A DNA stretch of 25,697 nucleotides from the IMG/VR virus record IMGVR_UViG_3300049423_000004, positions 1 to 25,697 of that record; one strand, given 5' to 3'. Below, piece after piece: positions 1,201-18,229 of the stretch. Each line of letters begins with the position of its first letter. The first letter of the stretch is position 1. Source of the DNA: a virus. The notes beneath the pieces are model-generated. The model saw only the letters and a program-made list of their open reading frames with translations. It was not told where the DNA came from and did not search any database. A program made the translations under genes and the position numbers.

Positions 1201-1213
1201 TTTGAATCTATTT

Positions 1214-2388: not shown

Positions 2389-2394
2389 CTCTGT

Positions 2395-2411: not shown

Positions 2412-2444
2412 TCACTTCTGAGATGAAACGAACACAACACACCC

Positions 2445-2999
2445 ATGGGACTATCGATTCGCGCCTACGCCCGTCATCGCGGGGTCACCGACACCGCCGT
2501 ACACAAGGCCATCCGCAGCGGGCGCATTAATGCGCTGGCCGACGGCACGATTGATCCCGATCAGGCGGATGCCCAGTGGGAGCGCAACACCAGTTCGCCC
2601 AAGACGGGAACACAACGACCGACCGTCAAGGTCAAGGTGCCGGAGGTCGATGGCGACGGTGAACGAAGTGGTGCAGGCGCTGCAACTAACACTGGCTCTG
2701 GCGGCGGTGGCACCTCGCTCTTACAAGCCCGAACCGTCAACGAGGTGGTTAAAGCGCAGACCAACAAAGTGCGACTGGCCAGGCTTAAGGGCGAACTCAT
2801 TGATCGGCCGCAGGCTATTGCCCATGTGTTCAAACTGGCCCGAAGTGAACGTGATGCCTGGCTGAACTGGCCCGCACGGGTCTCAGCCCAGATGGCCGCC
2901 AAATTGGAAATTGATGCGCACACCATGCACGTGGCGCTGGAGAACGCGGTGCGCGAGCACTTGCAGGAATTGGGTAACTTACAGGCAAGCGTTGACTGA
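2445..2999 (+). CDS. terminase small subunit (Nu1-like)
   Basis: The 184-residue protein probably recognises phage DNA (cos or pac) and recruits the large terminase. The first 50 residues form a helix-turn-helix of the type seen in lambda gpNu1 relatives (LSIRAYARHRGV, then AVHKAIRSGRI). A Gly/Ser/Thr-rich linker of about residues 50-90 (with GSGGGG) follows. The C-terminal helical region (about 95-184) contains a charged LARLKGELIDRPQA segment typical of the family and probably oligomerises or contacts the large subunit. The start is set by the HTH beginning at residue 3. The Shine-Dalgarno is weak. The stop overlaps the large-subunit start as TGATG (2997-3001). It is the first gene of the rightward operon. 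Confidence 0.8.
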   Translation: MGLSIRAYARHRGVTDTAVHKAIRSGRINALADGTIDPDQADAQWERNTSSPKTGTQRPTVKVKVPEVDGDGERSGAGAATNTGSGGGGTSLLQARTVNEVVKAQTNKVRLARLKGELIDRPQAIAHVFKLARSERDAWLNWPARVSAQMAAKLEIDAHTMHVALENAVREHLQELGNLQASVD

Positions 3000-5041
3000 T
3001 GAGCACCGAAATCGAAACCGATCACTACGATGGCGCAAGCGAAATAGAGCGAGCCTGGCGCGATGGCCTCACGCCTGACCCTCTGCTGTCGGTGTCCGAG
3101 TGGTCCGATCAGCACCGCATGCTCTCCAGCAAGGCATCAGCTGAGCCTGGTCGCTGGCGCACCAGCCGCACGCCGTACCTGAAGGAGATCATGGACTGCC
3201 TCTCGCCCAACTCGCCTGTGGAACGGGTGGTGTTCATGAAGGCGGCGCAACTGGGCGCGACTGAAATGGGCAGCAACTGGATTGGCTACGTGATCCACCA
3301 TGCGCCCGGGCCGATGATGGCGGTCTGGCCGACGGTGGACATGGCCAAGCGAAATTCCAAGCAGCGGATCGACCCTTTGATTGAGGAGTCCGCTGCATTG
3401 CGTGAATTGATTTCACCGGCCAGGTCGCGAGATTCCGGCAACACCATTCTGGCCAAGGAGTTCCGGGGTGGCGTGTTGGTGATGACCGGTGCCAACAGCG
3501 CAGTGGGGCTGCGCTCAATGCCGGTGCGCTATTTGTTCCTGGACGAGGTCGACGGTTATCCGCTGGATGTTGAGGGCGAAGGCGATGCGATTTCGCTGGC
3601 CGAAGCCCGCACGCGCACCTTCACCCGGCGCAAGATTTTCATTGTGTCGACCCCGACCATCTCGGGCGTGTCGGCCATTGAGCGCGAGTACGAGGCAAGT
3701 GACCAGCGGCGCTACTTTGTTCCCTGTCCGCACTGCGATCACCGCCAGTGGCTGCGTTTTGAGAACCTGCGCTGGGAAAAAGCCAAACCTGAGACCGCAG
3801 CCTATGTGTGCGAGTCCTGTGAACAGCCGATTGCAGAGCACCACAAGACGCGAATGCTCGAACTCGGCCAATGGCGCAGCATGATTGCGCAAGAGTCTGC
3901 AACGAGCAGCAAAGGTCGCAAAAAGACTGCCGGGTTTCACTTGTCATCCTTGTATAGCCCGGTCGGCTGGCGTAGCTGGCGCGATGTGGCTGCCGCCTGG
4001 GAGAGCGCGGTCAGCAAGGAATCCGGTTCCGCTGCTGCCATCAAGACCTTCAAAAACACCGAACTGGGTGAGACCTGGCTCGAAGAAGGCGAAGCACCGG
4101 ATTGGCAGCGCCTGATTGAGCGCCGCGAAGATTACCGAATCGGCAGCGTTGCACTGGGTGGCTTGCTGTTGGTGGCCGGTGCGGACGTGCAGAAGGACCG
4201 GATTGAGGTGTCGATCTGGGCATTCGGTCGCGGCAAGGAGTCCTGGCTGGTGGAGCACCGCGTGCTGATGGGTGACACTGCGCGCGATGCCGTCTGGAAA
4301 CGCTTGTCAGAGTTACTGGCCGAGCGCTGGACGCACGCCAGTGGTGTGTTGATGCCTTTGACCAGGCTGGCGCTGGACACCGGTTTTGCCACTCAGGAGA
4401 CCTATGCGTTTGCCCGCAGTTGTCACGACCCGCGACTGATGCCCGTCAAAGGGGTGCGCAGCGGTGCGATGGGTGGCGCGGCGCTGATCGGCACGCCTAC
4501 GGCGGTGGATGTGACCCAGGGCGGCAAGAAGCTGCGTCGAGGCATCAAGCTGTATTCGGTGGCGGTGGGCATGGCCAAGATGGAGCTTTACAACAACCTG
4601 CGCAAAGCAGCAGATGTGGGCTCGGACGGGACCACACCGCTTTACCCGGCTGGATTTGTTCATTTACCCAAAGTGGACGCCGAATATGTGCAGCAGTTGT
4701 GCGCCGAGAGTTTGATCACCCGGCACGACCGAAATGGCTTTGCACACCGTGAGTGGCAAAAGATGCGCGAGCGCAATGAGGCCTTGGACTGCTATGTGTA
4801 TGCCCGGGCGGCAGCGTCGAGTGTCGGTCTGGACCGCTTTGAGGAGCGCCACTGGCGCGAATTGGAAAAACAACTCGGGCTGGCGCGGCCACCCGACTCC
4901 GAGGTGAATGTCACCTCATCAAATTTGTCCATAGATTCCATTGATGCCAGCCTGACTGATGCAGGTCGCGCTGGCATCAGTGCTTCTGGACAGCCCAAAT
5001 TCGGTCGACGCGTGATCCGTAGTCCCTGGCTTAAACGCTAG
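2999..5041 (+). CDS. terL: terminase large subunit, GpA family
   Basis: The 680-residue packaging motor and nuclease is close in length to lambda gpA (641). An atypical Walker A, KAAQLGATE (residues 81-89), lies in the ATPase half. Walker B, YLFLDEVD, is at 178-185, and the coupling motif STPT is at 217-220. Two CxxC pairs (C243/C246 and C271/C274) look like the zinc-binding insert of GpA proteins. The C-terminal nuclease half includes GADVQKDRIEVSIWAFG (about 394-410) and a later ALDTGFAT segment, both of which fit an RNase H-like fold with acidic metal ligands. Translation is coupled to the small subunit by TGATG. A terminator hairpin follows about 60 bp after the stop, unusual inside a late operon. 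Confidence 0.95.
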   Translation: MSTEIETDHYDGASEIERAWRDGLTPDPLLSVSEWSDQHRMLSSKASAEPGRWRTSRTPYLKEIMDCLSPNSPVERVVFMKAAQLGATEMGSNWIGYVIHHAPGPMMAVWPTVDMAKRNSKQRIDPLIEESAALRELISPARSRDSGNTILAKEFRGGVLVMTGANSAVGLRSMPVRYLFLDEVDGYPLDVEGEGDAISLAEARTRTFTRRKIFIVSTPTISGVSAIEREYEASDQRRYFVPCPHCDHRQWLRFENLRWEKAKPETAAYVCESCEQPIAEHHKTRMLELGQWRSMIAQESATSSKGRKKTAGFHLSSLYSPVGWRSWRDVAAAWESAVSKESGSAAAIKTFKNTELGETWLEEGEAPDWQRLIERREDYRIGSVALGGLLLVAGADVQKDRIEVSIWAFGRGKESWLVEHRVLMGDTARDAVWKRLSELLAERWTHASGVLMPLTRLALDTGFATQETYAFARSCHDPRLMPVKGVRSGAMGGAALIGTPTAVDVTQGGKKLRRGIKLYSVAVGMAKMELYNNLRKAADVGSDGTTPLYPAGFVHLPKVDAEYVQQLCAESLITRHDRNGFAHREWQKMRERNEALDCYVYARAAASSVGLDRFEERHWRELEKQLGLARPPDSEVNVTSSNLSIDSIDASLTDAGRAGISASGQPKFGRRVIRSPWLKR

Positions 5042-5072
5042 GGGCTGTGTCGCACTGGTCGACCGTTTAACC

Positions 5073-5119
5073 GGAGCGTTTTGGCGCTCCTTCAATCACG
5101 GCACTTCGGTGCCTTTTTT
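5073..5119 (+). terminator. tandem hairpins; second is an intrinsic terminator
   Basis: The first hairpin has arms GGAGCG (5073-5078) and CGCTCC (5085-5090). The second has arms GGCAC (5100-5104) and GTGCC (5109-5113) around a TTCG tetraloop, followed by six T (5114-5119). This is a textbook rho-independent terminator in the + direction between the terminase and the fibre-like genes. Head genes downstream would need antitermination, leaky read-through or their own promoter. Confidence 0.8.
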
Positions 5120-5154
5120 ATTGCCTTTTCATTTCCTTATTTGGAGTTTTCCCC

Positions 5155-5661
5155 ATGAGTTTGCAAACACGCCTTGAATCCCTGGTTCTACGCCTTGCCG
5201 CCGAGTTCAAGACCATTTACGGTCAGGTCGGTACGCTGGCCAACCTCTCGACAACTGACAAAACCAGCCTGGTCAGTTCCATCAATGAGCTGCGCAGCCA
5301 GATTTCCACTTTGGCTGGCGTCACCATCATTGACGATGCCAACGCGGCTGGTACGGCCACCACGTTCTCGGCATCGAAGATCACCACCTTGCTCGATGCC
5401 CTCAAGGCTGACTTGCTCGGTGGTGCCGATGCAGCATTCGACACGCTCAAAGAACTGCAAACGGCCATCCTGGATGACCAGACGGGCATCGCGGCCTTGC
5501 TTGCCGCTGTTGACAAGCGGGTGCGCTTTGATGCGGCGCAATCCCTGACTGCCACCGAGCAGGAGCAGGCACGCCAGAACATCGGCGCGGTCTCTGTGCT
5601 GGACATCGGCAATGCGGATACCGACTTTGTGGCGGCGTTTGAAGCTGCGCTGCTGGCCTGA
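5155..5661 (+). CDS. fibre-like protein, possible head fibre
   Basis: The 168-residue protein resembles the shaft of phage fibres. It has an N-terminal amphipathic helix (LESLVLRLAAEFKT), then STTDKTSLVSSINELRSQI, the repeat-like DAAFDTLKELQTAILDD (about 99-115) and LTATEQEQARQNIGA near residue 135. The last is a short motif frequent in tail and head fibres. It ends with a TDFVAAFEAALLA segment. It lies between the terminase and gpW, in the head rather than the tail cluster, so I infer a capsid-attached fibre. A displaced tail fibre is also possible. GGAG lies 8 nt before the ATG. It is the first gene after the terminator, and the next gene starts 6 nt after its stop. Confidence 0.55.
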   Translation: MSLQTRLESLVLRLAAEFKTIYGQVGTLANLSTTDKTSLVSSINELRSQISTLAGVTIIDDANAAGTATTFSASKITTLLDALKADLLGGADAAFDTLKELQTAILDDQTGIAALLAAVDKRVRFDAAQSLTATEQEQARQNIGAVSVLDIGNADTDFVAAFEAALLA

Positions 5662-5667
5662 TCGTTC

Positions 5668-6072
5668 ATGAACCTGGCCCAACACATCACCGAATTGGCG
5701 CAGCGACTGGCTCTTGAACTCAAGACCCGCATTACCGCCGATCACCCTGGGGTTGCAAAAGCCTGGGTGTGCTTCGGGGTGGTTGTAACTGGCAGCAAAG
5801 CTTCGGTGGTGGTTCGGGCTGGGTTCAATGTGCATAGCGTCACCCGCACAAGCACTGGCAAATTCCGGGTGACGTTTTTGAGCCCCATGCCAGATGCCAA
5901 TTACTGCTGGCAGTCGTTCGCACGCAATGCTGGCAATCAATCCGCCATGAAACACGCTGGCGCACGCACCACAGCGGAGGCCAAGACCACCCAGTTTGTT
6001 GAGGTCGTCTGCACCACCTCAAACGGCACCTTGACCGACACCACCGAGATGAACCTGACCGTCTGGCGCTGA
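5668..6072 (+). CDS. fibre C-terminal domain protein
   Basis: The 134-residue protein begins with a helix ending RLALELKT that resembles the N-terminus of its neighbour (RLAAEFKT), so both may attach to the same virion site. After GVAKAWVCFGVVV comes a beta-rich domain with RAGFNVHSVTRTSTGKFRV and MPDANYCW. I recognise this combination from the C-terminal tip domain of many phage fibres. I infer the distal, possibly carbohydrate-binding, part of a two-component fibre. The function is not shown by sequence alone. Its TGA overlaps the following ATG (TGATG). Confidence 0.6.
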   Translation: MNLAQHITELAQRLALELKTRITADHPGVAKAWVCFGVVVTGSKASVVVRAGFNVHSVTRTSTGKFRVTFLSPMPDANYCWQSFARNAGNQSAMKHAGARTTAEAKTTQFVEVVCTTSNGTLTDTTEMNLTVWR

Positions 6073-6317
6073 TGCCCGAACAGAAAACAAACACCATGTC
6101 CTTCTCTCAAACCCAACTCGAAGCCTTGCAAGCTGCACTCACGCAAGGCGAGCGTCGCGTCTCATTCGGCGACAAGACCGTCGAATACCGCTCCGTTGAC
6201 GAACTCCGCCAAGCCATTCGCGAGGTCAAGCGAGGGCTGTCTGAGCAAGCCGCATCAACTGGCATGTGGCCCAGCGCGCCGCGTCAGATTCGCGTGACCA
6301 CATCCAAAGGCTTCTGA
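6072..6317 (+). CDS. gpW-like head-tail joining protein
   Basis: The 81-residue protein of the lambda W family fits between portal and tail and stabilises the DNA-filled head. The family signature is visible as TQLEALQAAL, then a short beta hairpin RRVSFGDKTVEYRSVDELRQAI, then a helix. Lambda gpW has 68 residues. The start at 6072 couples to the upstream stop (TGATG). An in-frame ATG at 6096 would give 73 residues, closer to family length, but has no clear Shine-Dalgarno. Its stop overlaps the portal start in the same TGATG fashion. Confidence 0.8.
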   Translation: MPEQKTNTMSFSQTQLEALQAALTQGERRVSFGDKTVEYRSVDELRQAIREVKRGLSEQAASTGMWPSAPRQIRVTTSKGF

Positions 6318-7849
6318 TGACTTGGTACACAAAAATCAGAAGTCTGTTTGGCCAGGTGGGTCAGGGACCGATACATGAAGCAGCAGGCCGTGGCAGGCGT
6401 GCACAGGCCTGGATGCCCGGCAACCCCGGCGCTGTGTCGGCGCTGCTCGCCACCAATTCTGAGTTGCGCACCAAAAGCCGCGACCTGGTGCGGCGCAACG
6501 CCTGGGCTCAGTCTGGCATCGAGGCCTTTGTGGCCAATGCGGTCGGCACCGGCATCAAGCCACAAAGTCTGGCCGGTGACGACACGTTCAAGGCGGCAGT
6601 GCAGACACTGTGGCGCGACTGGGTAGAGGAAGCCGATGCGGCAGGCCAGACAGACTTCTATGGTTTGCAAGCCTTGGCTTGTCGGGCCATGCTGGAGGGC
6701 GGTGAATGCCTGATCCGGCTGCGACCGCGCCGACCCGAAGATGGTTTGAGTGTGCCGCTGCAACTCCAGCTGATCGAGCCCGAGCACCTGCCACTGAATC
6801 TCAATATCGATCTCGATTCTGGCAATGTGGTTCGTTCGGGCATCGAATTCGATGGCGTTGGCAGGCGCGTGGCGTACCACTTGTACCGTTCCCACCCCGA
6901 GGATGGCAGGCTGGCACCCATGTCCGGCCAGGGTGGTCTGGAGACGGTGCGCATCGATGCCAGTGAAATCATCCACCTGTACAAGGTGTTGCGCCCGGGG
7001 CAGATTCGGGGTGAGCCCTGGCTCTCACGGGCCCTGGTCAAACTCAATGAACTCGACCAGTACGACGACGCGGAACTGGTGCGCAAGAAGACTGCTGCCA
7101 TGTTCGCAGGCTTTGTCACCCGCCAAAGCGTGGAGGACAACCTGCTGGGCGAAGGCCTGCCCGATGGCAATGGGGTATCGCTGGCTGGTTTGGAGCCCGG
7201 CACCATGCAGATTCTGGAGCCCGGCGAAGACATCAAGTTCTCTGACCCAGCCGATGTGGGTGGCTCCTATGGTGAATTTCTACGTGCCCAGTTTCGGGCG
7301 GTGGCAGCGGCCATTGGTATCACCTATGAACAACTGACCGGTGACCTCTCTGGCGTGAACTATTCCAGCATTCGGGCCGGGATGCTGGAATTCAGACGGC
7401 GTTGCGAGATGGTGCAGCACGGTGTGCTGGTGCATCAGATGTGTCGCCCAGTGTGGGCTGCATGGATGAAGCAGGCGGTGCTCAGCGGTGCCTTGACAGC
7501 GCCGGGTTTTGCCCGGGGCGGCAACGCAAAGCGGCGGCAATACCTCGCAGCCAAGTGGATTCCGCAGGGCTGGCAGTGGGTGGACCCTGAGAAAGAGTTC
7601 AAGGCCATGCTGCTGGCGATTCGCTCGGGGCTGATGAGTAGGTCTGAAGCCATTTCGGCTTTTGGTTATGACGCTGAGGACGTTGACCGGGAAATCGCTG
7701 CTGACAACCAGCGCGCCGATGACCTAGGTCTGATTTTTGACTCCGACCCAAGACGCACCTCGAAAGACGGTGGCAGCGCGGAGCCCAACAAGCATGCGAC
7801 CCAAGCCGCTTACAACGCAACCAGCGACCCGGTCACGACTGACACGTAG
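6317..7849 (+). CDS. portal protein, lambda gpB family
   Basis: The 510-residue protein forms the dodecameric ring through which DNA is packaged and ejected. Family features include an N-terminal GRRAQAWMPGNPGAVSALL, then LRTKSRDLVRRNAWAQSGIEAFVANAVGTG and, later, IRGEPWLSRALVKLNELDQYDDAELVRKKTAA, all characteristic of lambda-type portals. They are followed by QLTGDLSGVNYSSIRAGMLEFRR (about residues 337-359). The length agrees with lambda gpB (533). The start at 6317 is chosen for the TGATG overlap with gpW. The longer frame from 6266 would overlap gpW by 52 bp. The C-terminal 30 residues are polar and probably disordered. The protease gene starts 9 bp after the stop. Confidence 0.95.
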   Translation: MTWYTKIRSLFGQVGQGPIHEAAGRGRRAQAWMPGNPGAVSALLATNSELRTKSRDLVRRNAWAQSGIEAFVANAVGTGIKPQSLAGDDTFKAAVQTLWRDWVEEADAAGQTDFYGLQALACRAMLEGGECLIRLRPRRPEDGLSVPLQLQLIEPEHLPLNLNIDLDSGNVVRSGIEFDGVGRRVAYHLYRSHPEDGRLAPMSGQGGLETVRIDASEIIHLYKVLRPGQIRGEPWLSRALVKLNELDQYDDAELVRKKTAAMFAGFVTRQSVEDNLLGEGLPDGNGVSLAGLEPGTMQILEPGEDIKFSDPADVGGSYGEFLRAQFRAVAAAIGITYEQLTGDLSGVNYSSIRAGMLEFRRRCEMVQHGVLVHQMCRPVWAAWMKQAVLSGALTAPGFARGGNAKRRQYLAAKWIPQGWQWVDPEKEFKAMLLAIRSGLMSRSEAISAFGYDAEDVDREIAADNQRADDLGLIFDSDPRRTSKDGGSAEPNKHATQAAYNATSDPVTTDT

Positions 7850-7858
7850 AGGATTTTC

Positions 7859-9115
7859 ATGAACCTGTTACCGCATTTGGCGGCACGCCTGTTTGGTGCG
7901 CCGCTGCTCATCCATCGCCCAAAACTTGATGTGATCCTGTCTGTGCTGGGCGCACGCGTGGGGCTGGGTGACTTGTCGGCACCGACCGGCTTTATACCGC
8001 CTGATCGAAACGCGGCCCAGTCGGAGACCAACCCTGGTCAGTCTGACATTGCCGTGATCCCCATTTATGGCACGCTGGTGCGGCGTACCCAAGGGCTTGA
8101 AGCCCAGTCCGGTTTGACCAGTTACGCCGGTATTGCCATGGCACTGGATACAGCGCTGGCCGACCCGAATGTCGCAGCCATCGTGCTCGATATTGACTCG
8201 CCCGGTGGCGAATCCTCTGGCGTGTTTGATCTGGCGGATCGCATTCGCGCGGCCACGGCCATCAAACCAGTCTGGGCGGTTGCCAACGATATGGCGTTCT
8301 CCGCCGCCTATGCGCTGGCCAGTGCTGCCAGCCGCCTGATCGTCTCACGCACCGGCGGTGTGGGCTCCATTGGCGTGATTGCGATGCACGTTGATCAGTC
8401 TGTCCGGGATGTTCAAGACGGTGTGTCCTACACCGCCGTCTTTGCCGGGGACCGCAAGAACGATCTCAACCCGCACGCACCCATCTCGGGCGAAGCACAA
8501 AGTTTTTTACAGGGTGAGGTCAATCGAATTTATGACCTGTTTGCCACGACGGTGGCCAAACACCGGGGTATGGGCGTGAACACCATCAAAGGCACTCAAG
8601 CAGCCCTGTTCTTCGGCGCTGACGCGGTTGCTTCTGGTCTGGCTGATGACGTCGGCACGCTTGATGACGCGATCAGACAGATCAACTCCATGTTGCTGCC
8701 ACCGGTTCCCTCGCTCTCCCGACTACTCGCCAGTTCCATCCTCACTGAAACCTCTCTTGAAAAGGAAATCCCCATGACGCAATCTGCTCAATCCGCACCA
8801 ATGCTCGCCCAATCGAGCACAGTTGCCACAACTTCAAACACTGAAGCCGCGTTTGCAGTCTCTGATGCGATTGAAATCGCGCAAAGCTGCACGCTGGCTG
8901 GCCGCACTGACCTGATCGCTGGCTTTTTGGAAGCCAAAGTGGCACCCAGTCAGGTGCGCAGCCAGTTGCTCACGGCAATGGCACAGCAATCCACGGAAAT
9001 TGTCAGCCGAATTGACCCCAATGCCGTGCATCACCAGGAAATGGCTGCCTCCAACCCGGCATCTTCCGACAACCCGCTGATTCAGGCCGTTAAAGCCCGC
9101 ATTGCTGCTCGCTAA
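7859..9115 (+). CDS. S49-family head maturation protease (gpC-like) with C-terminal scaffold region
   Basis: The 418-residue ClpP/SppA-type protease probably cleaves scaffold and portal during procapsid maturation. The protease fold spans about residues 60-290, with IPIYGTLV, DIDSPGGE (111-118) and the catalytic-serine region NDMAFSAAYALA, where Ser148 aligns with the nucleophile. Lys200 in AGDRKND is the likely general base. A hydrophilic helical tail follows, which in lambda corresponds to the scaffold gpNu3. The length is close to lambda gpC (439). AGAGGA lies about 6 nt upstream of the ATG. An internal Shine-Dalgarno and in-frame ATG at 8774 indicate a nested scaffold product. Confidence 0.93.
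   Translation: MNLLPHLAARLFGAPLLIHRPKLDVILSVLGARVGLGDLSAPTGFIPPDRNAAQSETNPGQSDIAVIPIYGTLVRRTQGLEAQSGLTSYAGIAMALDTALADPNVAAIVLDIDSPGGESSGVFDLADRIRAATAIKPVWAVANDMAFSAAYALASAASRLIVSRTGGVGSIGVIAMHVDQSVRDVQDGVSYTAVFAGDRKNDLNPHAPISGEAQSFLQGEVNRIYDLFATTVAKHRGMGVNTIKGTQAALFFGADAVASGLADDVGTLDDAIRQINSMLLPPVPSLSRLLASSILTETSLEKEIPMTQSAQSAPMLAQSSTVATTSNTEAAFAVSDAIEIAQSCTLAGRTDLIAGFLEAKVAPSQVRSQLLTAMAQQSTEIVSRIDPNAVHHQEMAASNPASSDNPLIQAVKARIAAR
8774..9115 (+). CDS. nested in-frame scaffold protein (Nu3-like)
   Basis: An ATG at 8774 (codon 306 of the protease frame) is preceded by AAAGGAAATCCCC, a good Shine-Dalgarno about 7 nt upstream. It would yield a separate 113-residue product that is acidic to polar, rich in Ala/Gln/Ser and helical, as expected of a scaffold. 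The arrangement mirrors lambda C/Nu3. Independent translation is inferred from the ribosome site and family precedent, not proven. Confidence 0.7.
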   Translation: MTQSAQSAPMLAQSSTVATTSNTEAAFAVSDAIEIAQSCTLAGRTDLIAGFLEAKVAPSQVRSQLLTAMAQQSTEIVSRIDPNAVHHQEMAASNPASSDNPLIQAVKARIAAR

Positions 9116-9159
9116 ACCACGTCACAAATCAACTTTCCCCTCACTGATTGGAGAACTCT

Positions 9160-9537
9160 ATGGCTGAAATCAAACAAACCCTCAATCTGGGCGACTTGCT
9201 CAAGTACGAAGACGAAGGCTTTTATTCGCGCGACCGCGCCACCCTGACTGCTGGCCAAACCCTGGTACTGGGCACCGTACTTGGGTTTGTGGTCGCCACC
9301 GGACGGGTTAAACAACTCGATCCGAGCGCCACCGATGGCAGCCAAGTCGCCTGTGGCGTGTTGCTGCAAGACTGCGATGCCTATCTGGCAGACCGGGACG
9401 ACGCACTGATGCTGGCGCGCCATAGCGCAGTGGCCCAGCACGCGCTCACCTGGCCTGCCGCCATCACTGTTGCCGAGCGTGACGCTGCAGTGGCCCAACT
9501 CAAGGCCCTGGGCATTCTGGTGCGCCAAAGCGCCTGA
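9160..9537 (+). CDS. head decoration protein, gpD family
   Basis: The 125-residue protein matches the lambda gpD family (110 residues), trimers of which cap and stabilise the expanded capsid. Visible landmarks are the N-terminal extended arm, LTAGQTLVLGTVLGFV, a central ACGVLLQDCDA turn and the C-terminal helix RDAAVAQLKALGILVR. The ATG at 9160 has TTGGAG 6 nt upstream. The frame can be extended to a TTG at 9148, but that would place the ribosome site inside the gene. It lies between protease/scaffold and major capsid, as in lambda. Confidence 0.85.
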   Translation: MAEIKQTLNLGDLLKYEDEGFYSRDRATLTAGQTLVLGTVLGFVVATGRVKQLDPSATDGSQVACGVLLQDCDAYLADRDDALMLARHSAVAQHALTWPAAITVAERDAAVAQLKALGILVRQSA

Positions 9538-9588
9538 CCACCAAAGCCAATTCACCTCATCCCGCTCACTCATTGAAGGAAAGCCATC

Positions 9589-10611
9589 ATGGCCATCAAC
9601 AACCCGTTTCTCAATCCTGCTTTTTCCATGGCATCGCTGACAGCAGCGATCAACCTGCTGCCCAATCGCTACGACCGACTCGACCAGTTGGGTCTTTTTT
9701 CCGCCAAGCCGGTACGCACCCGCACCATCGTGCTCGAAGAAAAGGCCGGTGTGCTCAATTTGCTGCCCAGTCTGCCTGTGGGCTCACCCGGTACGGTCGG
9801 TATTCGGGGCAAGCGCACGCTGCGCAGCTTTGTCATCCCGCACATCCCGCACGATGACGTGGTGCTCCCTGAAGAGGTCTTGGGACTGCGCTCGTTTGGC
9901 ACCGAGAATGAATTTGCCTCCATTGCGGCGGTGCTGGCTGAGCACCTGGACAACATGCGCACCAAACACGCAGCCACACTGGAATATCTGCGCATGGGTG
10001 CATTGAAAGGCATCGTGTTGGATGCAGATGGCCGGGTTTTGGTGAACCTGTACGACGAATTCAAGATCACGCCCAAAACCATCAGCTTCAAACTCAACGT
10101 CGACACCACCAACGTGCTGGAAAAGTGTCTTGATCTCAAACGCTACTTGGGCAAAAGCCTGATGGGTGAGCGCATGAGCAGCGTTCAGTGTCTTGTTTCA
10201 CCCGAGTTCTTCACCAAGCTCGTGACCCACCCCAGCGTGGTCGATGCGTACCGCCTGTTCAATGAGAGTCAGATTCTGCGCTCCGATATGCGCTCGGGCT
10301 TTCCGTTTGCAGGGGTCACCTTTGAGGAATATGCCGGTGAAGCCAGCGTACCCGACGGCTCTGGTGGCTGGTCGACCAAGTCCTATATCGATGCTGGCGA
10401 AGGGCATGCGTTCCCGCTGGGCACGATCGACACCTTTGCCACCTACTTTGCGCCGGCTGACTTTAACGAGACAGTCAACACGCTGGGCCAGCCGATCTAT
10501 GCCAAGCAGGCTCCGCGACAGTTTGAACGTGGCACCGACTTGCACACTCAGAGCAATCCGCTGCCCCTGTGCCAGCGGCCGGCTCTGCTGGTGCGCCTGA
10601 CCGCGACGTGA
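9589..10611 (+). CDS. major capsid protein, lambda gpE family
   Basis: The 340-residue protein has nearly the same length as lambda gpE (341) and forms the icosahedral shell. Features typical of the family are NLLPNRYDRLDQLGLF near the N-terminus, RTIVLEEKAGVLNLLPS, the RSFVIPHIPHDD loop and the PLGTIDTFATYFAPADFNET region near the C-terminus. These fit the HK97-type fold. AAGGAAA precedes the ATG by about 7 nt. The stop (10609-10611) abuts a hairpin containing the next gene's ribosome site, so expression of that gene is probably coupled to this one. Confidence 0.93.
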   Translation: MAINNPFLNPAFSMASLTAAINLLPNRYDRLDQLGLFSAKPVRTRTIVLEEKAGVLNLLPSLPVGSPGTVGIRGKRTLRSFVIPHIPHDDVVLPEEVLGLRSFGTENEFASIAAVLAEHLDNMRTKHAATLEYLRMGALKGIVLDADGRVLVNLYDEFKITPKTISFKLNVDTTNVLEKCLDLKRYLGKSLMGERMSSVQCLVSPEFFTKLVTHPSVVDAYRLFNESQILRSDMRSGFPFAGVTFEEYAGEASVPDGSGGWSTKSYIDAGEGHAFPLGTIDTFATYFAPADFNETVNTLGQPIYAKQAPRQFERGTDLHTQSNPLPLCQRPALLVRLTAT

Positions 10612-10626
10612 TGGGAGCAATCCCAT
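10611..10626 (+). promoter_or_regulatory. hairpin sequestering SD and start codon of the FII-like gene
   Basis: ATGGGA (10611-10616) pairs with TCCCAT (10621-10626) around a GCAA loop of the GNRA type. The Shine-Dalgarno GGGAG (10613-10617) and part of the start codon at 10625 both lie inside the structure. The capsid stop codon ends at its first base, so a terminating ribosome would open it. Confidence 0.55.
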
Positions 10627-10930
10627 GACCACCTTGGTAGAAAAACTCTACCGCGCCGCTGCCAACGTCGGGTTTCTCAAGACCTGCGTCTGGCAACCCA
10701 GCGATGGCGGTGTAGATCAAACCCACTCGGTAGGGTTTTCTGCACCTGATCAAGACGTGCTCTCGGGGCTGGGAGTCAGCACCGAGTACGCGATGACCTA
10801 CCCAAACTCCTGCCTTGTGGGGCTGAAATCCCGCGAGGTGGTGCAAATCGAGGGCGATGTCTACCAGGTGCGAGAAGTCATGGCCGTGGGCGATGGCTCC
10901 GAGGTGCGCGCCAAACTGATGCGGGTGTGA
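10625..10930 (+). CDS. head completion / tail attachment protein (gpFII-like)
   Basis: The 101-residue protein follows the major capsid gene, where lambda-like phages encode gpFII (117 residues), the head-tail connector to which the tail docks. The second half reads YPNSCLVGLKSREVVQIEGD, then YQVREVMAVGDGSEVRAKLMR. This small beta-barrel signature is common in phage head-closure and tail-attachment proteins. Assignment rests on this pattern plus position. GGGAG lies 7 nt before the ATG but within a hairpin. The gene ends 17 bp before the convergent moron's stop. Confidence 0.65.
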   Translation: MTTLVEKLYRAAANVGFLKTCVWQPSDGGVDQTHSVGFSAPDQDVLSGLGVSTEYAMTYPNSCLVGLKSREVVQIEGDVYQVREVMAVGDGSEVRAKLMRV

Positions 10931-10933
10931 TCA

Positions 10934-10950
10934 CTGACTTGTGTAGTCAG
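10934..10950. other. small hairpin between convergent genes
   Basis: CTGACT (10934-10939) and AGTCAG (10945-10950) pair around a 5-nt loop between the ends of the FII-like gene and the reverse-strand moron. No T-run follows on either strand, so termination is unproven. It may just slow convergent transcription. Confidence 0.3.
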
Positions 10951-11603
10951 GTGCCAATCTTGATCCAGCCATTCCAAAGCATGCGATCCAGGGCTGCGTT
11001 GGCAGCCTTGCGGTCAAAGCGTTCAGGATCAAAGTCCAGTCCAGCCCATTCGCGCATTTCTTTGGCTTCTTCGCTGTAGGGGCTGTCCTCAAGGGTGGCC
11101 AGAGACTCCTGATAGCCCCAAATGCCACCCGCGTCTTCAGGCGGGCAGGCTCGCTGACCCGATTCCACCCATACCCGGCCAGCGTTGCTGTCGTCATTGT
11201 CCAGATCCCGTATGGACTCGACCGTGATCCGGTGCTGCCAACTGTCGCCAAAGTCGTACAGGTATTCAAACACCTCACCTGTTTCCAGCAGTTGATTGAG
11301 ACGGAATTTGGACTCATCCAAGGTTTCGATTTCCAAAAACTGGTCTTCTTCGTCGGGCGGTGCGTAACGCTTTTCACGAATCGTGAATTCATGCAAATGC
11401 GAGTCAGTCCAGCCCATGGCCGCTTGCAGGATGTGGTGAAACGCATTCAGGCGTGCGCGGCCATCGATGTAAATGCGTCGCCAGATCACGGGCTCTGAGT
11501 CCACCAACTCGACCTTGAGGATGAAAACACTCGGAGATGACTGGGATTTGAGGCTTTTTCTGCTGCCGCTGCTGGTGCCTTTGACGGGCTTGGATGTCGC
11601 CAT
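10947..11603 (-). CDS. pRiA4b ORF-3 / IS1096 passenger (TnpR-like) family protein; moron
   Basis: The 218-residue protein is of the pRiA4b ORF-3-like family, often labelled IS1096 passenger TnpR although it is not a resolvase. Hallmarks are EPVIWRRIYI (about 37-46), FHHILQAAMGWTDSHLHEF, EYLYDFGDSWQHRI, the CPPEDAGGIWGYQE motif and a C-terminal FDPERFDRKAANAAL. The first 25 residues are Ser/Lys-rich and probably disordered. The family's molecular role is unknown. It is the only gene opposing the late operon, sits exactly between head and tail modules, and has a candidate promoter 31 bp upstream. It therefore fits a moron expressed in the lysogen, possibly affecting host physiology or superinfection. 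AGAGG lies about 8 nt before the ATG. Confidence 0.9.
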   Translation of the reverse strand: MATSKPVKGTSSGSRKSLKSQSSPSVFILKVELVDSEPVIWRRIYIDGRARLNAFHHILQAAMGWTDSHLHEFTIREKRYAPPDEEDQFLEIETLDESKFRLNQLLETGEVFEYLYDFGDSWQHRITVESIRDLDNDDSNAGRVWVESGQRACPPEDAGGIWGYQESLATLEDSPYSEEAKEMREWAGLDFDPERFDRKAANAALDRMLWNGWIKIGT

Positions 11604-11633
11604 GAAGAGTGCCTCTTTGAACTCAAAACAAGC

Positions 11634-11662
11634 ATTTTATGAATGACCCATAACCCATCCAA
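11634..11662 (-). promoter_or_regulatory. candidate sigma-70 promoter for the moron
   Basis: On the minus strand TTGGAT (11657-11662) and TAAAAT (11634-11639) are separated by exactly 17 nt, about 31 bp upstream of the moron start. The -10 matches consensus at 5 of 6 positions and the -35 at 3 of 6. It lies within 65 bp of non-coding DNA between the moron and the tail terminator gene. Confidence 0.5.
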
Positions 11663-11667
11663 AAACC

Positions 11668-12111
11668 ATGACCCAGTCCATTCGTGAACGAATCCTGCAA
11701 GCAATCGTCGGGGTACTGACCCCGGTCGCCACTGATCAGGCAGCCACTGTGTGGCGAACGCCCAGCGTGTCCATCACGCGCGACCAGTGCCCAGCGCTGG
11801 TGGTGTTTCCTGAGAGTGAGTCACTGGCTGAGCGCGCCAACGACCGGGTCACCCGCGAGTTGACGGTGCGCATCACAGCGCTTGCGCGCGCGGTGCCGCC
11901 CGACGTTGCCGAAACGCAGGCTGATGCCTTGCTCTGTGCAGCGCATTCTGCCCTGATGCTTGACGTCAACCTAGGCGGCCTGGCGCTCGGCGTGCGGGAA
12001 GTCGAGTCCGAGTGGGAAGTGGAAGACGCTGACGGCGTTGCTGCCAGCACATCTGCGCGCTACCAGATCACCTACCGCACCCTGATCGCGGACATCGCAA
12101 TTCAAGCCTGA
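11668..12111 (+). CDS. tail terminator / completion protein
   Basis: The 147-residue protein lies directly upstream of the major tail protein, where siphophages encode the terminator that caps the tube and joins head to tail (lambda gpU position). The sequence has the expected layout: an N-terminal helix (IRERILQAIVGVL), a CPALVVFPESES strand segment, VTRELTVRITALAR, and a final YQITYRTL strand. No database search was possible, so the call rests on layout and position. No strong Shine-Dalgarno is visible. It is the first gene after the moron. Confidence 0.55.
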   Translation: MTQSIRERILQAIVGVLTPVATDQAATVWRTPSVSITRDQCPALVVFPESESLAERANDRVTRELTVRITALARAVPPDVAETQADALLCAAHSALMLDVNLGGLALGVREVESEWEVEDADGVAASTSARYQITYRTLIADIAIQA

Positions 12112-12160
12112 ATCCTTTTCCCCATTTTTTCATCCATTCCAACTTTAAGGATCCCAAACC

Positions 12161-12934
12161 ATGAGCACCTATGCATCATTCCAAGGCCGTGTTTACCTCG
12201 GCAAACGTGACGTTGAAGGCAACCCCATCGAGGTTCGCTCACCCGGCAACGTGGCCGAGTTGAAACTCTCGCTCAAAACCGACGTGCTGGAGCATTACGA
12301 GAGCCAGACCGGTCAGCGCACGCTGGATCACCGCATGGTCAAGCAAAAATCGGCCACGGTGAATCTGACCATTGAAGAGTTCACCAAAGAAAATTTGGCG
12401 CTGGCCCTGTACGGCAACTACGTGGTTGGCACGCCCGGCACTGTGACCAATGAGCCATTGGCGGGCGCTTCTCCCTTGGTCGGCGAGCGCTATTTCCTGG
12501 CTCACCCCAAGGTAGCCAGCCTGGTGATTCTGGACAGCAGCGCCACACCCGCGACCCTGGTCGAAGGGGTGGACTACACCGTCGATAAAGACTTCGGCGC
12601 TATCCAGTTGCTGCGTCTGAACGATGGAGGCACACCTGCCGTGGCCTACGCCGCCCCACTGAAGGCCAGCTACGCCTTTGGTGTCACTACCGAGATTGGC
12701 ATCTTTACCCAGCCACTGCCCGAGCGTTTCCTGCGGCTGGAGGGCATCAACACCGCCGACGGTAATGCAAAGGTGTTGGTTGAGTTGTACCGGGTGGCGT
12801 TTGATCCCTTGAAGGAAATCTCGTTCATCTCCAACGAATACAACAAGTTCGAGATGGAAGGCTCCCTCTTAGCCGATTCCAGCAAGCCTTTCGATGCAAC
12901 GCTGGGCCAGTTCGGCCGCATTGTCCAAATCTGA
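12161..12934 (+). CDS. major tail (tube) protein
   Basis: The 257-residue protein lies between the terminator and the tail assembly chaperone, the standard place for the tube subunit. Its length is close to lambda gpV (246). The N-terminus (FQGRVYLGKRD, then GNVAELKLSLKTDVLEHYES) and the C-terminal LKEISFISNEYNKFEMEGSLLAD, with the closing FGRIVQI, resemble tube proteins of this phage group. In between is ERYFLAHPKVASLVILDSS followed by a beta-rich insert (about 130-165). AAGGA lies about 9 nt upstream of the ATG. Confidence 0.8.
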   Translation: MSTYASFQGRVYLGKRDVEGNPIEVRSPGNVAELKLSLKTDVLEHYESQTGQRTLDHRMVKQKSATVNLTIEEFTKENLALALYGNYVVGTPGTVTNEPLAGASPLVGERYFLAHPKVASLVILDSSATPATLVEGVDYTVDKDFGAIQLLRLNDGGTPAVAYAAPLKASYAFGVTTEIGIFTQPLPERFLRLEGINTADGNAKVLVELYRVAFDPLKEISFISNEYNKFEMEGSLLADSSKPFDATLGQFGRIVQI

Positions 12935-12944
12935 AAGGCGCGTC

Positions 12945-13340
12945 ATGACTGATTTGGAAAAACTCATTCCCCAGGACACCCTGGTGCAGGTGGCAGGCGA
13001 AACCATTGCGATATCCCCCCTCAAAGTGGGCCAGTTGCCTGCTTTCCTGCGGGTGATCGCACCCGTGATGGCGCAATTGAGCCAACCGCAAATCAACTGG
13101 CTGGCGCTGTTTGGCGAGCGTGGTGACGATTTGTTGAACGCCATCGGCATCGCAGTCAAAAAACCGCGCGAGTGGGTGGACGACTTGGCAGCGGACGACG
13201 CGTTGCTGCTGGCAGCCAAGGTGATGGAGGTCAACGCTGATTTTTTTACCCGAACGGTGATTCCCAAACTCGACGGTCTGTTCAGTCTGGGCCAGGGCAT
13301 TCGGGAGGCCAATACTGGTTCGACCTTACCCAGCGCCTGA
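12945..13340 (+). CDS. tail assembly chaperone, short form (gpG-like)
   Basis: The 131-residue protein binds the tape measure during tail assembly in known systems. The N-terminus (LEKLIPQDTLVQVAGETIAI) and SPLKVGQLPAFLRVIAPV, then VKKPREWVDDLAADDALLLAAKVMEVNADFFTR, match small chaperones encoded between tail tube and tape measure. The start at 12945 is favoured by GAAAGG just upstream. The frame extends to 12894 but would overlap the tube gene. A T7 run at codons 100-101 with an upstream GGAGGT makes a fraction of ribosomes shift -1 into the extension at 13247-13537. Confidence 0.8.
   Translation: MTDLEKLIPQDTLVQVAGETIAISPLKVGQLPAFLRVIAPVMAQLSQPQINWLALFGERGDDLLNAIGIAVKKPREWVDDLAADDALLLAAKVMEVNADFFTRTVIPKLDGLFSLGQGIREANTGSTLPSA
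13226..13247 (+). promoter_or_regulatory. programmed -1 frameshift signal
   Basis: T TTT TTT (13241-13247) is read in frame as Phe-Phe. GGAGGT (13226-13231) lies 9 nt upstream, the spacing of Shine-Dalgarno-like stimulators such as that of dnaX. The -1 frame has a TGA (13238-13240) immediately before the run and is then open to 13537. A 3' stimulatory hairpin was not obvious. Confidence 0.7.
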
Positions 13341-13537
13341 TCGGGCATGGCCACCGGCTGCCCGACATCCTGGACTACACGCTGGCGCAGTTGAAAGGCT
13401 TTGCTGCTGCCAGCTCTCGCCTGGACAGCGCGCGTGATGCCCAACTCCTGTCCCTGATTGCCATTGGCAGCCGGGGCGACTCCAAAAACCTCGATCAAAC
13501 GCTTGAACGTCTGACCACTGCATCAAACCCGAAATGA
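13247..13537 (+). CDS. tail assembly chaperone -1 frameshift extension (GT-like)
   Basis: This -1 frame encodes 96 residues with no ATG or GTG start, only an internal TTG and a few ATT/ATC, so it is expressed only as a fusion with the upstream chaperone. Joined at the T7 site it gives a product of about 197 residues. The well-formed part (WFDLTQRLIGHGHRLPDILD, then YTLAQLKGFAAASSR) is helical, with codon use like the neighbours. Its stop overlaps the next gene's ATG as ATGA (13534-13537), which supports it being real. This mirrors lambda G/GT, in which the T domain recruits tail tube protein. Codons 13248-13315 look better in the zero frame, so a slip site nearer 13315 cannot be excluded. Confidence 0.75.
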   Translation, partial: YPNGDSQTRRSVQSGPGHSGGQYWFDLTQRLIGHGHRLPDILDYTLAQLKGFAAASSRLDSARDAQLLSLIAIGSRGDSKNLDQTLERLTTASNPK

Positions 13538-14178
13538 AAATCTCCATTCGAATCGACAGCGCCGCCGCGCAAGCCCAGCTTCGCCGATGGGGTGGGGAGT
13601 TTCGCGACAAGGTCAAAAAGGCGGTGGCCAAGGCTATGGCGAAAGAGGCAGTGGAGATCAAACGAGACGTGCGCGACCAGGTGGCATCGCAACTGACGGT
13701 GGTGAAGAAGACCTTTCTCAATGGGTTCTCCGCCTACGTGATCGACAAAGATCCCAGTCGTTTGCCTGCGCTCTACGTAGGCTCGCGCATTCCCTGGGTC
13801 GGAATGCATGAGAACGGTGGCGTGATCTCGGCCAAGATGCTGATCCCCTTGCATGGCCGGGTCGGCCGCAAACGTTTCAAGGCACAGATTGCCGAACTGA
13901 TGCGGGGCGGCAACGCCTACTTCATCAAAAACGCCAAGGGCAACGTGGTGCTGATGGCCGAGAACATCAAAGAGCACGACCGACCCTTGGCCGGTTTCAA
14001 GCGTCGCTACCGCAAAGCCGAAGGAATCAAGCGCATCAAACGCGGTGCAGATATTCCGATTGCCGTACTGGTGCCGCGTGTCATGCTCAAAAAGCGACTC
14101 GACATTGAGCGACTGGTGGTGCGTCGCATCCCACGACTGGCAGCAGGCATCGAACAACAAATCCGCACGGTCGGATGA
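13534..14178 (+). CDS. minor tail protein (DUF6441 / gpZ-like)
   Basis: The 214-residue basic protein sits between chaperone and tape measure. The N-terminal half is helical (FRDKVKKAVAKAMAKEAVEI), followed by RLPALYVGSRIPWVGMHENGG and a beta-rich segment containing GGNAYFIKNAKGNVVLMAEN. The C-terminus has IAVLVPRVMLKKRLDIERLV. The MHENGG string and overall layout recall tail-completion proteins of the DUF6441 or gpZ type. The family call is tentative. ATGA overlap with the frameshift extension indicates coupling. Confidence 0.45.
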   Translation: MKISIRIDSAAAQAQLRRWGGEFRDKVKKAVAKAMAKEAVEIKRDVRDQVASQLTVVKKTFLNGFSAYVIDKDPSRLPALYVGSRIPWVGMHENGGVISAKMLIPLHGRVGRKRFKAQIAELMRGGNAYFIKNAKGNVVLMAENIKEHDRPLAGFKRRYRKAEGIKRIKRGADIPIAVLVPRVMLKKRLDIERLVVRRIPRLAAGIEQQIRTVG

Positions 14179-14200
14179 CCCTCAAATATTGAACTGACCC

Positions 14201-17200
14201 ATGGCCAACAACCGTATCGCCGTTTTAGTCGCCCTTGAAGGTGCAGATGACGGGCTTAAACGCGCCCTGAATTCTGCCCAGCAAAGCCTGGGTGAGTTGG
14301 CATCGACAGCCAAGACCGCAGGCGACAAGGCTGCGCGCGGTATGGCCGAGGTCAAAGCAGGCATGTCAGCGTTTGGCGATCAGGTGGCGACCGCCAAAAC
14401 GCAACTGCTGGCTTTCCTGTCTATCAACTGGGCGGCAGGCAAGGTGCAGGAGATCGTCCAGATTGCCGATGCCTGGAACATGATGGGCGCACGCCTGAAG
14501 CTGGCAACAGCCGGTCAGAATGAGTTTGTCACCGCGCAAAAAGCGCTGTTTGACATCGCTCAGCGTATTGGTGTGCCAATTCAGGAAGTCTCGACCCTGT
14601 ACGGCAAGTTGCAGCAAGCGGTGCGCATGCTCGGTGGTGAACAGAAAGATGCCTTGACCATCACGGAGAGCATCTCGCAGGCCTTGCGCCTGTCCGGTGC
14701 GTCGGCCACAGAAGCCCAGTCCTCACTCTTGCAGTTCGGACAAGCCTTGGCGTCCGGTGTGCTGCGTGGCGAGGAATTCAATTCAGTCGTCGAAAACTCA
14801 CCCCGTCTGGCCCAAGCGCTGGCCGACGGCTTGAACGTGCCCATTGGTCGGCTGCGCAAGTTGGCTGAAGAGGGTCGACTCACCGCTGACGTGGTGGTCA
14901 ACGCCTTGATGGGCCAAAAGGACAAGCTCGCCGCCGAGTACGCGCAACTTCCAGCAACCGTCGCACAGGCCTTTCAGCGCCTGCAAAACGCCTTCGGGCA
15001 GTGGGTCGCGCAGGTGGATGCCGCCACCGGCATCACCAAAAAGCTCGCCGATGGTCTGACCTGGCTGGCCACCAATCTTGATACGGTCATGCAGTGGCTC
15101 AAAAGAATAGCCGAAGTGGGACTGGCGGTGCTCATTTACCGGCTGCTGCCAGCGTTGGTCACCGCTTGGCAAACCGCTGGAGCCGCAGCCATCACCGCTG
15201 CCACCGCTACCTCTGCGGCCTGGGCCACCGCCAATTTATCGGTCACAGCAGCCATTGCCAGCGTCGGGCTGCTCAAAACCGCCTTTGCCGTGCTGGGTGC
15301 GTTCGCAGTGGGCTGGGAAATCGGCACCTGGCTGTCCGAGAAATTCGAGATCGTCCGCAAAGCGGGCATCTTCATGGTTGAAATCCTGGTCAAAGCAGTC
15401 GAAGTTCTGCAATACAGCTGGGAAGCGTTTGCAGCAATCTTTACCAGTGACACCATCGATGCTGCCACCAAGCGTCATGAAGCTCGGCTGGCCGAGATGA
15501 ATGTGATCTTCGCCCAGATGTATGCCGATGCCACCAAGGGTTCGGACACCGCCAAAGCGGCCATGACCACTGCGGCCACCACAGCAGAAGAGATTGCCAA
15601 AAAGCTGGAAGCTGTGCGTCAGGGAACCCAAGAAGCGGTCGGTCGTGGCGTTGAAGCGGTTCACTCCGCAGTGGAAAAGCTCAAATCCCGGCTGGGCGAG
15701 GTGGAACAGGCGGTCACCAAGGCCAATGGCGTGGTGACGGATGCGACAGCAAAAATGGCTGAAGCGTACAAGGGTCTGACGGCCATGGTGGAAGCCAACC
15801 TGCAAAAACAGGTCGATGCTGTGAAAGCACGCTACCAGCAGGAGCAGACGGCACTGGATTTGTCGAAGGCGTCAGAGGCAACCCAGATCGCCAAGTCAAC
15901 CCTGCTGCTCACTGACGCACTGACTCAGCAGACCACCCTGCGGCAAAAGGCCACCACGGACACCTTGAAACTCATCGATGACGAGTCCAGCGCCAGGGTG
16001 GCAGCAGCAGCCAAACAAGGCCTAACGGAAGCCGAGCGCAGCGCCAACGTCACCCGGGTCGAAAACGAGATTCTGGCGACCAAACGCCAGTCCATGGTCA
16101 TTGCCGCCACGGAATACCGCGCCCACATTGATGCGCTCAACGCTGAGGCCAACCGGCATCTGGCAGAAATTCAGCGCATCGAAGAAGCCAAACGGCTGCT
16201 GACGATGACCACGGAAGAAAAAATCCGTGAACTGCGTCGTCAGGGCATGACTGAATTTGAGGCCACGGAAGACCGCAAACGTCAGATCGTTGAGTTGCAG
16301 AGCAAGGCGCGTGATGCACTGGCCGCTGGTGAATTTGAGCAAGCCAAGCAGTTTGCGCAAAAGGCCATGGATTTGGCGGTGCAAGTGGGCAGTGCCCAAA
16401 CCGCTGAAGCCAAAAAGGCAGAGGAAGCCAAGAAGCAATCCGAGCAAGCGCACACCCAGGTCGTGACCCTGGAGTCACAGGCGCGTGAGGCTTCTCGCAA
16501 ACAGGAGTACGACAAGGCTGCCGACCTGATGCGCCAGGCAGACACCCTGCGGGCCGAACTGGCCCAGAAAACCAAGGATTCTGATACTGCGATCACCCAA
16601 GGCAAGCAGGGTATCAACACGGCCATTGGTGACATCCGCACATCCGAGGAAATCCTGGTCAAGACGCTTGATGCACAGGCGCAGGCACACCAAAACGCAG
16701 CCAAGTCGGCGTTGAGTGCGCGTGACCAGATCAAGCAGACCCTGACGGATACGGAAACCCAGATCGACCAGATCACCGCCAAGCTCAAAGATGGTTTGAA
16801 AGTCACACTGGACGCGGACACCACCCGGTTTGACAAGGCCATGGCTGATCTTGATAAGGCAATGGCCGAGAAAGAAAGGCTGCTGGTCATCAAGGCCGAT
16901 CTGGAACAGGCCCAGAAAAAGCTCCAGGAATATGAAGCTTTGCTCAAAGAAGGCAAGACGCTGCCGGTGGATGCCGATGTCAGCCAGGCCAAAGCGGCGC
17001 TGGACAAACTGACCGCCTATGCAAAGCAAAACTCGCTGATCGAGCTGCAAGTCACTTCTGAAAAAGCCCAAGCAGCGATCAACAATGTGGAAGGCATGAT
17101 CAATGCACTGGGTCGCATCCGCACTGAGTCGCAGCACAGTGTGAACACCAATGCCGATGCGGCGCGCTCGCAAATCTCCAGCCTCAACGGCATGAATACG

Positions 17201-18229
17201 TCGAGCACCCACACGATCTATGTGACCAAGGTCGAAACGAACGCGACGGGTGGACTAGTGGGCGCAGGTCTGCCGCACTTCGCTGTCGGCGGTGCAGTCG
17301 CTCCCATGGTGCAGTCTGCATTTGCCCGAATGACCGGTGGCTCCGTGCCGGGCTCGGGCGATCAAGACACGGTACCGCGCACGCTGGACGCTGGCGCGTA
17401 TGTGTTGCGCAAAGCGGCGGTGCGCAAATATGGTGCTACTACCCTGTCAAAAATTGCCAATGGTGTGGCCCGGTTTGCCACGGGCGGTTCGGTGGTAACC
17501 CCCGGTTCGAACGTCATCAAGCACAACAAGGACGCGGTGGAAGCCCAGCAAATGATCGAGTTGGGTTTGTCCGGAATGCGTCAGTATGTGCAGTGGATGC
17601 GCATGCAGTACGGTGCTTCCATGAGTATCGGATTCGAGTACGACACCATGGTGGGTTACGGCCAACTGGCCAACACCGACCGTAGAACCTTGGAGAGCCT
17701 GCTCAATCGCAAGCAACTCACAGGCAACGAAAAACAAAAGCTCGATGCCATCAAGGCCAACTGGCGGCAAGCCATGGCGCAGCCACTGGCCTATGGTAAA
17801 GACCTTGAACGCGACCTGATGGAATACATGGAGCAGCACCAGGGTGAGTTTTACCGGGGCGGTGGAGTGGCCAAGTCCGATACGGTTCCCGCCATGCTCA
17901 CTCCCGGCGAATACGTGGTCAACCGGTCAGCGGTGTCGCGCTTTGGCACCGGCTTTTTTGAGTCGCTCAACAACCTGAGCCTGCCAGCGCAAGCCCTGGC
18001 CGCGCGCGTGCAGGGCTTTGCCAGTGGTGGACTTGTTCAGTCACTGGTGCCATCTCTGGCATCACCCATGTCAGTGCCAAGACCTGAATTGGCGGCGAGC
18101 AGTGCTCCGGTACGAACAGTGCGAGTTGAACTGGCGGCGGGAAACCGCAGTGTGTCAGCCACGGTCGATGCTAGGGATGAAACCCGACTGCTGGACATCT
18201 TGAAACAAGCGAAATCACGCGCTTTTTAG
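14201..18229 (+). CDS. tail tape measure protein
   Basis: The 1342-residue protein sets tail length and is ejected with the DNA. The conserved tape-measure domain spans about residues 85-280 (FVTAQKALFDIAQRIGV, then VLRGEEFNSVVENSPRLAQA and GRLTADVVVNAL). A hydrophobic Ala-rich region follows at about 304-376 and may insert in the host membrane. The middle (about 420-1000) is long charged coiled coil, including two TPR-like repeats near 697-725 and 757-783 (SKARDALAAGEFEQAKQFA; SQAREASRKQEYDKAADLM). The C-terminus has two related Gly-rich modules, near 1047-1078 (PGSGDQDTVPRTLDAGAYVL) and 1220-1252 (KSDTVPAMLTPGEYVVNRSAV). No lysozyme or peptidase domain is evident. The Shine-Dalgarno is weak. 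Confidence 0.95.
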   Translation: MANNRIAVLVALEGADDGLKRALNSAQQSLGELASTAKTAGDKAARGMAEVKAGMSAFGDQVATAKTQLLAFLSINWAAGKVQEIVQIADAWNMMGARLKLATAGQNEFVTAQKALFDIAQRIGVPIQEVSTLYGKLQQAVRMLGGEQKDALTITESISQALRLSGASATEAQSSLLQFGQALASGVLRGEEFNSVVENSPRLAQALADGLNVPIGRLRKLAEEGRLTADVVVNALMGQKDKLAAEYAQLPATVAQAFQRLQNAFGQWVAQVDAATGITKKLADGLTWLATNLDTVMQWLKRIAEVGLAVLIYRLLPALVTAWQTAGAAAITAATATSAAWATANLSVTAAIASVGLLKTAFAVLGAFAVGWEIGTWLSEKFEIVRKAGIFMVEILVKAVEVLQYSWEAFAAIFTSDTIDAATKRHEARLAEMNVIFAQMYADATKGSDTAKAAMTTAATTAEEIAKKLEAVRQGTQEAVGRGVEAVHSAVEKLKSRLGEVEQAVTKANGVVTDATAKMAEAYKGLTAMVEANLQKQVDAVKARYQQEQTALDLSKASEATQIAKSTLLLTDALTQQTTLRQKATTDTLKLIDDESSARVAAAAKQGLTEAERSANVTRVENEILATKRQSMVIAATEYRAHIDALNAEANRHLAEIQRIEEAKRLLTMTTEEKIRELRRQGMTEFEATEDRKRQIVELQSKARDALAAGEFEQAKQFAQKAMDLAVQVGSAQTAEAKKAEEAKKQSEQAHTQVVTLESQAREASRKQEYDKAADLMRQADTLRAELAQKTKDSDTAITQGKQGINTAIGDIRTSEEILVKTLDAQAQAHQNAAKSALSARDQIKQTLTDTETQIDQITAKLKDGLKVTLDADTTRFDKAMADLDKAMAEKERLLVIKADLEQAQKKLQEYEALLKEGKTLPVDADVSQAKAALDKLTAYAKQNSLIELQVTSEKAQAAINNVEGMINALGRIRTESQHSVNTNADAARSQISSLNGMNTSSTHTIYVTKVETNATGGLVGAGLPHFAVGGAVAPMVQSAFARMTGGSVPGSGDQDTVPRTLDAGAYVLRKAAVRKYGATTLSKIANGVARFATGGSVVTPGSNVIKHNKDAVEAQQMIELGLSGMRQYVQWMRMQYGASMSIGFEYDTMVGYGQLANTDRRTLESLLNRKQLTGNEKQKLDAIKANWRQAMAQPLAYGKDLERDLMEYMEQHQGEFYRGGGVAKSDTVPAMLTPGEYVVNRSAVSRFGTGFFESLNNLSLPAQALAARVQGFASGGLVQSLVPSLASPMSVPRPELAASSAPVRTVRVELAAGNRSVSATVDARDETRLLDILKQAKSRAF

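Follow-up and report, generated by a model that had tools for sequence, protein, structure and literature searches.

An optional antisense PF07929 gene at the head-tail join of a temperate phage: a probable accessory gene of lysogens

The window analysed, a whole stretch of 25,697 nucleotides that makes up an IMG/VR virus record, carries late genes in a lambda-like order, namely terminase, portal, protease, decoration protein, capsid protein E, head-tail attachment, tail terminator, major tail protein, and tape measure. Against this order runs one opposing gene (10947 - 11603, minus strand). Its left flank is the gene for the head-tail attachment protein (Phage_attach, PF05354; 10625 - 10930, plus strand; Pfam) and its right flank that for the tail terminator (phrog_4204; 11668 - 12111, plus strand; PHROGs), so that it sits exactly at the boundary of head completion and tail terminator genes, as the original prediction had it. 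That prediction had assigned the interval 10930 - 11667 to the gene; an opposing PF07929 gene is indeed present there, but the open reading frame itself takes up positions 10947 - 11603 only. A search of phage records with megablast returned no match. Two further minus-strand genes lie to the left of the terminase (window 755 - 1906), with 87% and 68% identity in a Rhodoferax prophage (L174).

The gene starts with ATG at position 11603 and encodes a protein of 218 amino acids, whose membership of the pRiA4b ORF-3-like family was borne out by a match to PF07929 (PRiA4_ORF3; E = 9.8e-58, 195.1 bits against a gathering cut-off of 26.6 bits; residues 26 - 199 on profile positions 2 - 172 of 173). 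The closest solved structure is 2i1s (E = 2e-27), that of MM3350, a Methanosarcina protein of unknown function. The AlphaFold2 model of the protein reached a pLDDT of 83 overall and below 50 for residues 1 - 20, and 2i1s was also its top fold match in Foldseek (E = 8e-16, TM 0.69 - 0.84), hence an MM3350 fold behind a disordered basic N-terminal tail is predicted. This tail (KKKHRSSQS type) is conserved among the copies at the head-tail join. In addition, the ORF3 alignment contains invariant residues (WR, GW.D.H.H.F, YD.GD.W.H, and CPP.D.GG), which suggests a conserved surface or site. The protein had no match in PHROGs or NCBIfam, nor in PADLOC at E-values up to 1, where it matched no described defence family.

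The conserved basic, unstructured tail could point to a regulator of phage or host expression, for instance one keeping the late genes quiet in the lysogen, rather than to a defence protein. A weak local fold match to SNAPC3 (TM 0.37, rmsd 6.4; Foldseek), a subunit that binds DNA and contains a ubiquitin-like domain (PMC9758055), goes in the same direction. However, this match is local, a likeness to SNAPC3 at sequence level was looked for and not found, and the Pfam scan of the protein revealed neither a helix-turn-helix (HTH) nor any other known DNA-binding domain. Furthermore, most close relatives of the phage are without the gene, which therefore cannot be a core regulator. A regulatory function instead of defence is thus considered unlikely.

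Comparison with a phage of 90% identity (L018) delimited the insertion. Positions 2362 - 10928 and 11677 - 17466 of the window abut at 18319/18299 in L018 (blastn), leaving a clean gap of 748 bp (10929 - 11676), whereas the flanks in L018 are separated by about 20 bp. Together with the closed sites described below, this indicates that the insertion consists of the gene plus its upstream region with the promoter, and nothing else. Relatives were gathered in two ways, by the ORF3 protein and by the capsid protein, the latter in viral contigs and genomes regardless of ORF3. Capsid, attachment, and terminator genes were all recognised in 96 non-redundant loci. In 79 of these, the attachment/terminator join was closed (9 - 97 bp), the terminator starting within a few bases of the attachment stop, and in the other 17 it held the PF07929 gene; among the capsid-selected relatives alone, it was found in 13 of 94. 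Every occupied site scored for strand (42 of 42) carries it in antisense orientation. The G+C content of the gene is 55.4% versus 58.6% for the late region (GC3 of 64.8 versus 67 - 72), and its dN/dS (0.02 - 0.10) is similar to that of the neighbouring capsid and tail genes, according to which it is under strong purifying selection. Because of this selection and the clean empty sites in relatives, the reading frame is not a chance feature.

These data also bear on the idea that the opposing gene nevertheless encodes a part of the virion or an assembly protein. The position between connector genes and the conservation of the site would fit such a protein, but most relatives that share the capsid, attachment, and terminator genes lack it, L018 included, all copies scored run against the late operon, and the relatives of its product are found in insertion sequence (IS) elements, plasmids, and chromosomes. 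This possibility is largely refuted and retains very little credibility; a conserved virion or assembly component, the outcome named in the original prediction as speaking against it, is incompatible with the patchy distribution and the orientation. The protein is not a core part of the virion.

The history of the gene at this join appears to be one of repeated exchange. Parsimony on the terminator tree gave 10 presence changes, at least four of them forced by well-supported branches, in a tree of few columns in which gain and loss are not distinguishable. Moreover, two phages (L056 and L065) share 97% protein identity in the tail terminator, 99% in the major tail protein, and 98% in the capsid protein, but only 52% in ORF3. 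As judged from these comparisons, gain, loss, and replacement of the gene do not follow the history of its flanks. A further pair (L008 and L010; ORF3 91% versus flanks 61 - 63%) was not relied on as a case of ORF3-only transfer, because by dS ORF3 (0.71) falls between the major tail (0.53) and capsid (0.88) genes; fast or replaced flanks may explain these identities as well. In the tree, all 49 copies from the head-tail join group together in a single clade (support 99), which also takes in a truncated chromosomal relic. This would most simply be explained by a single ancient capture at the join, after which the gene spread and was lost as the flanking genes recombined. When the same locus was checked in related prophages, as had been proposed, no cargo other than PF07929 was present among loci with both flanks recognised. 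An IS110-family transposase gene was located behind the attachment gene at the same join in a Lysobacter prophage (L123:11570 - 12706).

The gene probably has its own sigma70-like promoter, predicted from a conserved -10 element and a weak, unconserved -35 element. The -10 element (TAAAAT; 11634 - 11639, minus strand), 30 nt upstream of the start codon, takes the form TA[ACG]AAT at all 36 non-redundant occupied sites; the exact hexamer TAAAAT occurs at 26 of these, compared with 0.7 expected from shuffles, and TACAAT or TAGAAT at the same position in the remaining ten. The element is preceded by CA or CG at occupied sites. The TTGGAT-17-TAAAAT promoter initially proposed can be read in the sequence and its -10 half stands, but the candidate -35 hexamer (TTGGAT; 11657 - 11662, minus strand; 17-bp spacer) matches three of six consensus positions, which is why a generic promoter scan missed the combination, and no -35 hexamer is conserved across the occupied head-tail-join sites. 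Behind the gene, no transcription terminator was listed by the scan.

With the ORF3 alignment, two further antisense sites in late operons were retrieved from viral contigs, namely between the large terminase and gpW/portal genes (20 loci) and immediately behind capsid protein E (seven loci), the capsid-E and terminase–gpW/portal sites being covered by loci L312 - L320 and L313 - L340. Copies from these two sites fall largely in clades of their own, one capsid-site copy (L309) standing apart. The three antisense sites represent only three independent orientations, for which the chance is 1 in 8. At the terminase–gpW/portal site, 10 of 12 cases have TTGNNN-17-TANNNT, against 0.1 expected, and this element reaches into the start of the late gene that follows. 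The occurrence of different promoters before the same kind of backwards gene strengthens the case that separate transcription matters. In one locus (L312), the PF07929 gene behind capsid protein E adjoins an HU-like gene and Phage_attach. Another phage (L351:15488 - 18297) contains two adjacent genes that each encode a ParB N-terminal domain fused to an N6/N4 DNA methylase.

Outside phages, the family is widespread, as had been stated, with 2766 matching plasmid records. Host and plasmid copies are mostly distinct again from the phage clades and often lie beside IS66. This could make the phage gene a stranded passenger remnant of an IS66/IS1096-type transposon, without function for the phage. 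Indeed, among 64 genes neighbouring host copies, IS66 transposases are the most frequent kind (eight), plasmid PF07929 copies are found directly behind IS66, elements of the ISAzba1 group carry a PF07929 gene (PMC3942029), and IS66 and an IS1096 TnpR-type gene occur in phages Marin and LouisV14, respectively. In contrast, the occupied gap contains no transposase gene, and the edges of the cassette show neither terminal inverted repeats nor a target duplication; a mobile cassette was considered and rejected for want of edge repeats, no hallmarks of self-mobility being seen. One ancient clade at one site, with a low dN/dS and a conserved -10 element, is likewise unlike a stranded remnant, which makes this explanation improbable, although an IS passenger may have been the ultimate origin of the gene.

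Two relics in bacterial chromosomes show decay rather than upkeep. One relic (L218:2938 - 3738) has broken attachment and terminator flanks, a dN/dS of 0.20, and a lost invariant Trp, and a second (L184/L236; L236:9523 - 10107) is a truncated ORF3 without phage neighbours. Retention of these relics for host benefit was rejected because both decay, and away from the phage there is no sign of a strong benefit to the host. Several neighbours are weak hints of a defence role. A type I restriction gene adjoins one host copy, and in three Rhodobacterales plasmids (L355, L356, and L357) the PF07929 gene lies directly upstream of an AbiEi-type gene, alongside an AbiEii toxin-family gene in two and a TerB-domain/ATP-binding pair in two; because these plasmids are related, they amount to hardly more than a single case. 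On plasmids L353, L355, and L359, translesion polymerase genes (umuDC-like and DinB/DnaE2-type) adjoin the PF07929 gene or lie close to it.

As to the lifestyle of the phage, a 38-kb contig (L002) represents the same phage (100% identity over the 19.8 kb compared) and has, besides DUF2924, genes for a large serine recombinase and for a repressor-like protein of HTH/IrrE type. Such a recombinase also turned up in six of the 11 other records searched (five of the nine virus records among them), whereas no tyrosine integrase was found in 12 related viral contigs. The Rhodoferax genome contig L174 (75.7 kb) harbours an occupied relative with a recombinase and, further on, typically bacterial genes (radical-SAM and outer-membrane), which is consistent with an integrated prophage. 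By the recombinase and the repressor-like gene, the phage is temperate.

Taken together, the patchy presence, precise empty sites, antisense orientation, conserved -10 element, and temperate nature of the phage support the placement of the gene at a moron site, as first suggested, phages that are otherwise alike either carrying or lacking it at the one site. It is probably an optional accessory gene (moron), expressed in lysogeny and opposed by late transcription. In such a scheme, transcription would proceed leftward from the gene's own promoter, against the late operon, and the protein would be made in the lysogen while the late genes are silent. Upon induction, late transcription across the head-tail junction would run antisense over the gene and lower its expression. 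The lysogen would benefit from the protein, most likely through interference with competing phages, by analogy with the anti-phage genes tab and tai (PMC10884400, PMC11364771), and the gene would move from phage to phage when the conserved flanking genes recombine, not through any mobility of its own. If the gene is indeed a moron, a defence function is plausible on this analogy and on the few defence-gene neighbours of plasmid relatives, somewhat short of an even chance, and the lysogenic-conversion or superinfection-exclusion role first suggested is a candidate on the same grounds; another cytoplasmic host-modifying or regulatory role is the alternative benefit. More speculatively, and on balance doubtful, PF07929 might be a prophage-borne anti-phage family that was captured independently at least three times antisense in late operons, the phage's own late transcription silencing it during lytic growth and so replacing a counter-defence gene of the kind that accompanies tab and tai.

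In the literature searched, the function of this widespread family is nowhere described and the family was not previously recognised as a recurrent antisense moron; the only mention of it in phages found was a passing one, of an expressed copy in a phage of a snail symbiont (PMC8418041). The recurrent, orientation-fixed capture in late operons, the selection, and the conserved -10 element now provide a concrete and testable setting, that of an accessory gene of lysogens, and a direct test is offered by natural pairs of near-identical phages, one member of which lacks the gene. Should the defence function hold, antisense placement may be a general route by which prophages switch off their own defence at induction.

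Regarding known systems, the protein shares its domain and top fold with PF07929 PRiA4_ORF3/MM3350 (2i1s), the phage copies at this join being a clade of their own with the conserved basic tail. Passenger PF07929 genes of IS66/IS1096 elements belong to the same family but lie beside transposases on the element, whereas the phage gene stands alone at a gene join. The tab gene of Pseudomonas phage JBD26 is a single minus-strand gene with its own promoter that sits at the terminase genes, a fixed join within the late operon, and is optional among near-identical phages (PMC10884400). The PF07929 gene is likewise single, minus-strand, optional, and placed at a fixed late-operon join; tab, however, encodes 83 amino acids, is unrelated by its description, and is paired with a sense-strand anti-tab gene. 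Similarly, tai of phage phi80 (tai/ati, a noncontiguous operon) is divergent and interrupts the Q-controlled late operon, whose transcription opposes it (PMC11364771). The likeness to tai is one of arrangement, both genes being read against the late operon, but tai lies upstream of the packaging genes with an adjacent counter-defence gene. Unlike tab and tai, the PF07929 gene at the head-tail join thus stands without a sense-strand counter-defence gene beside it.
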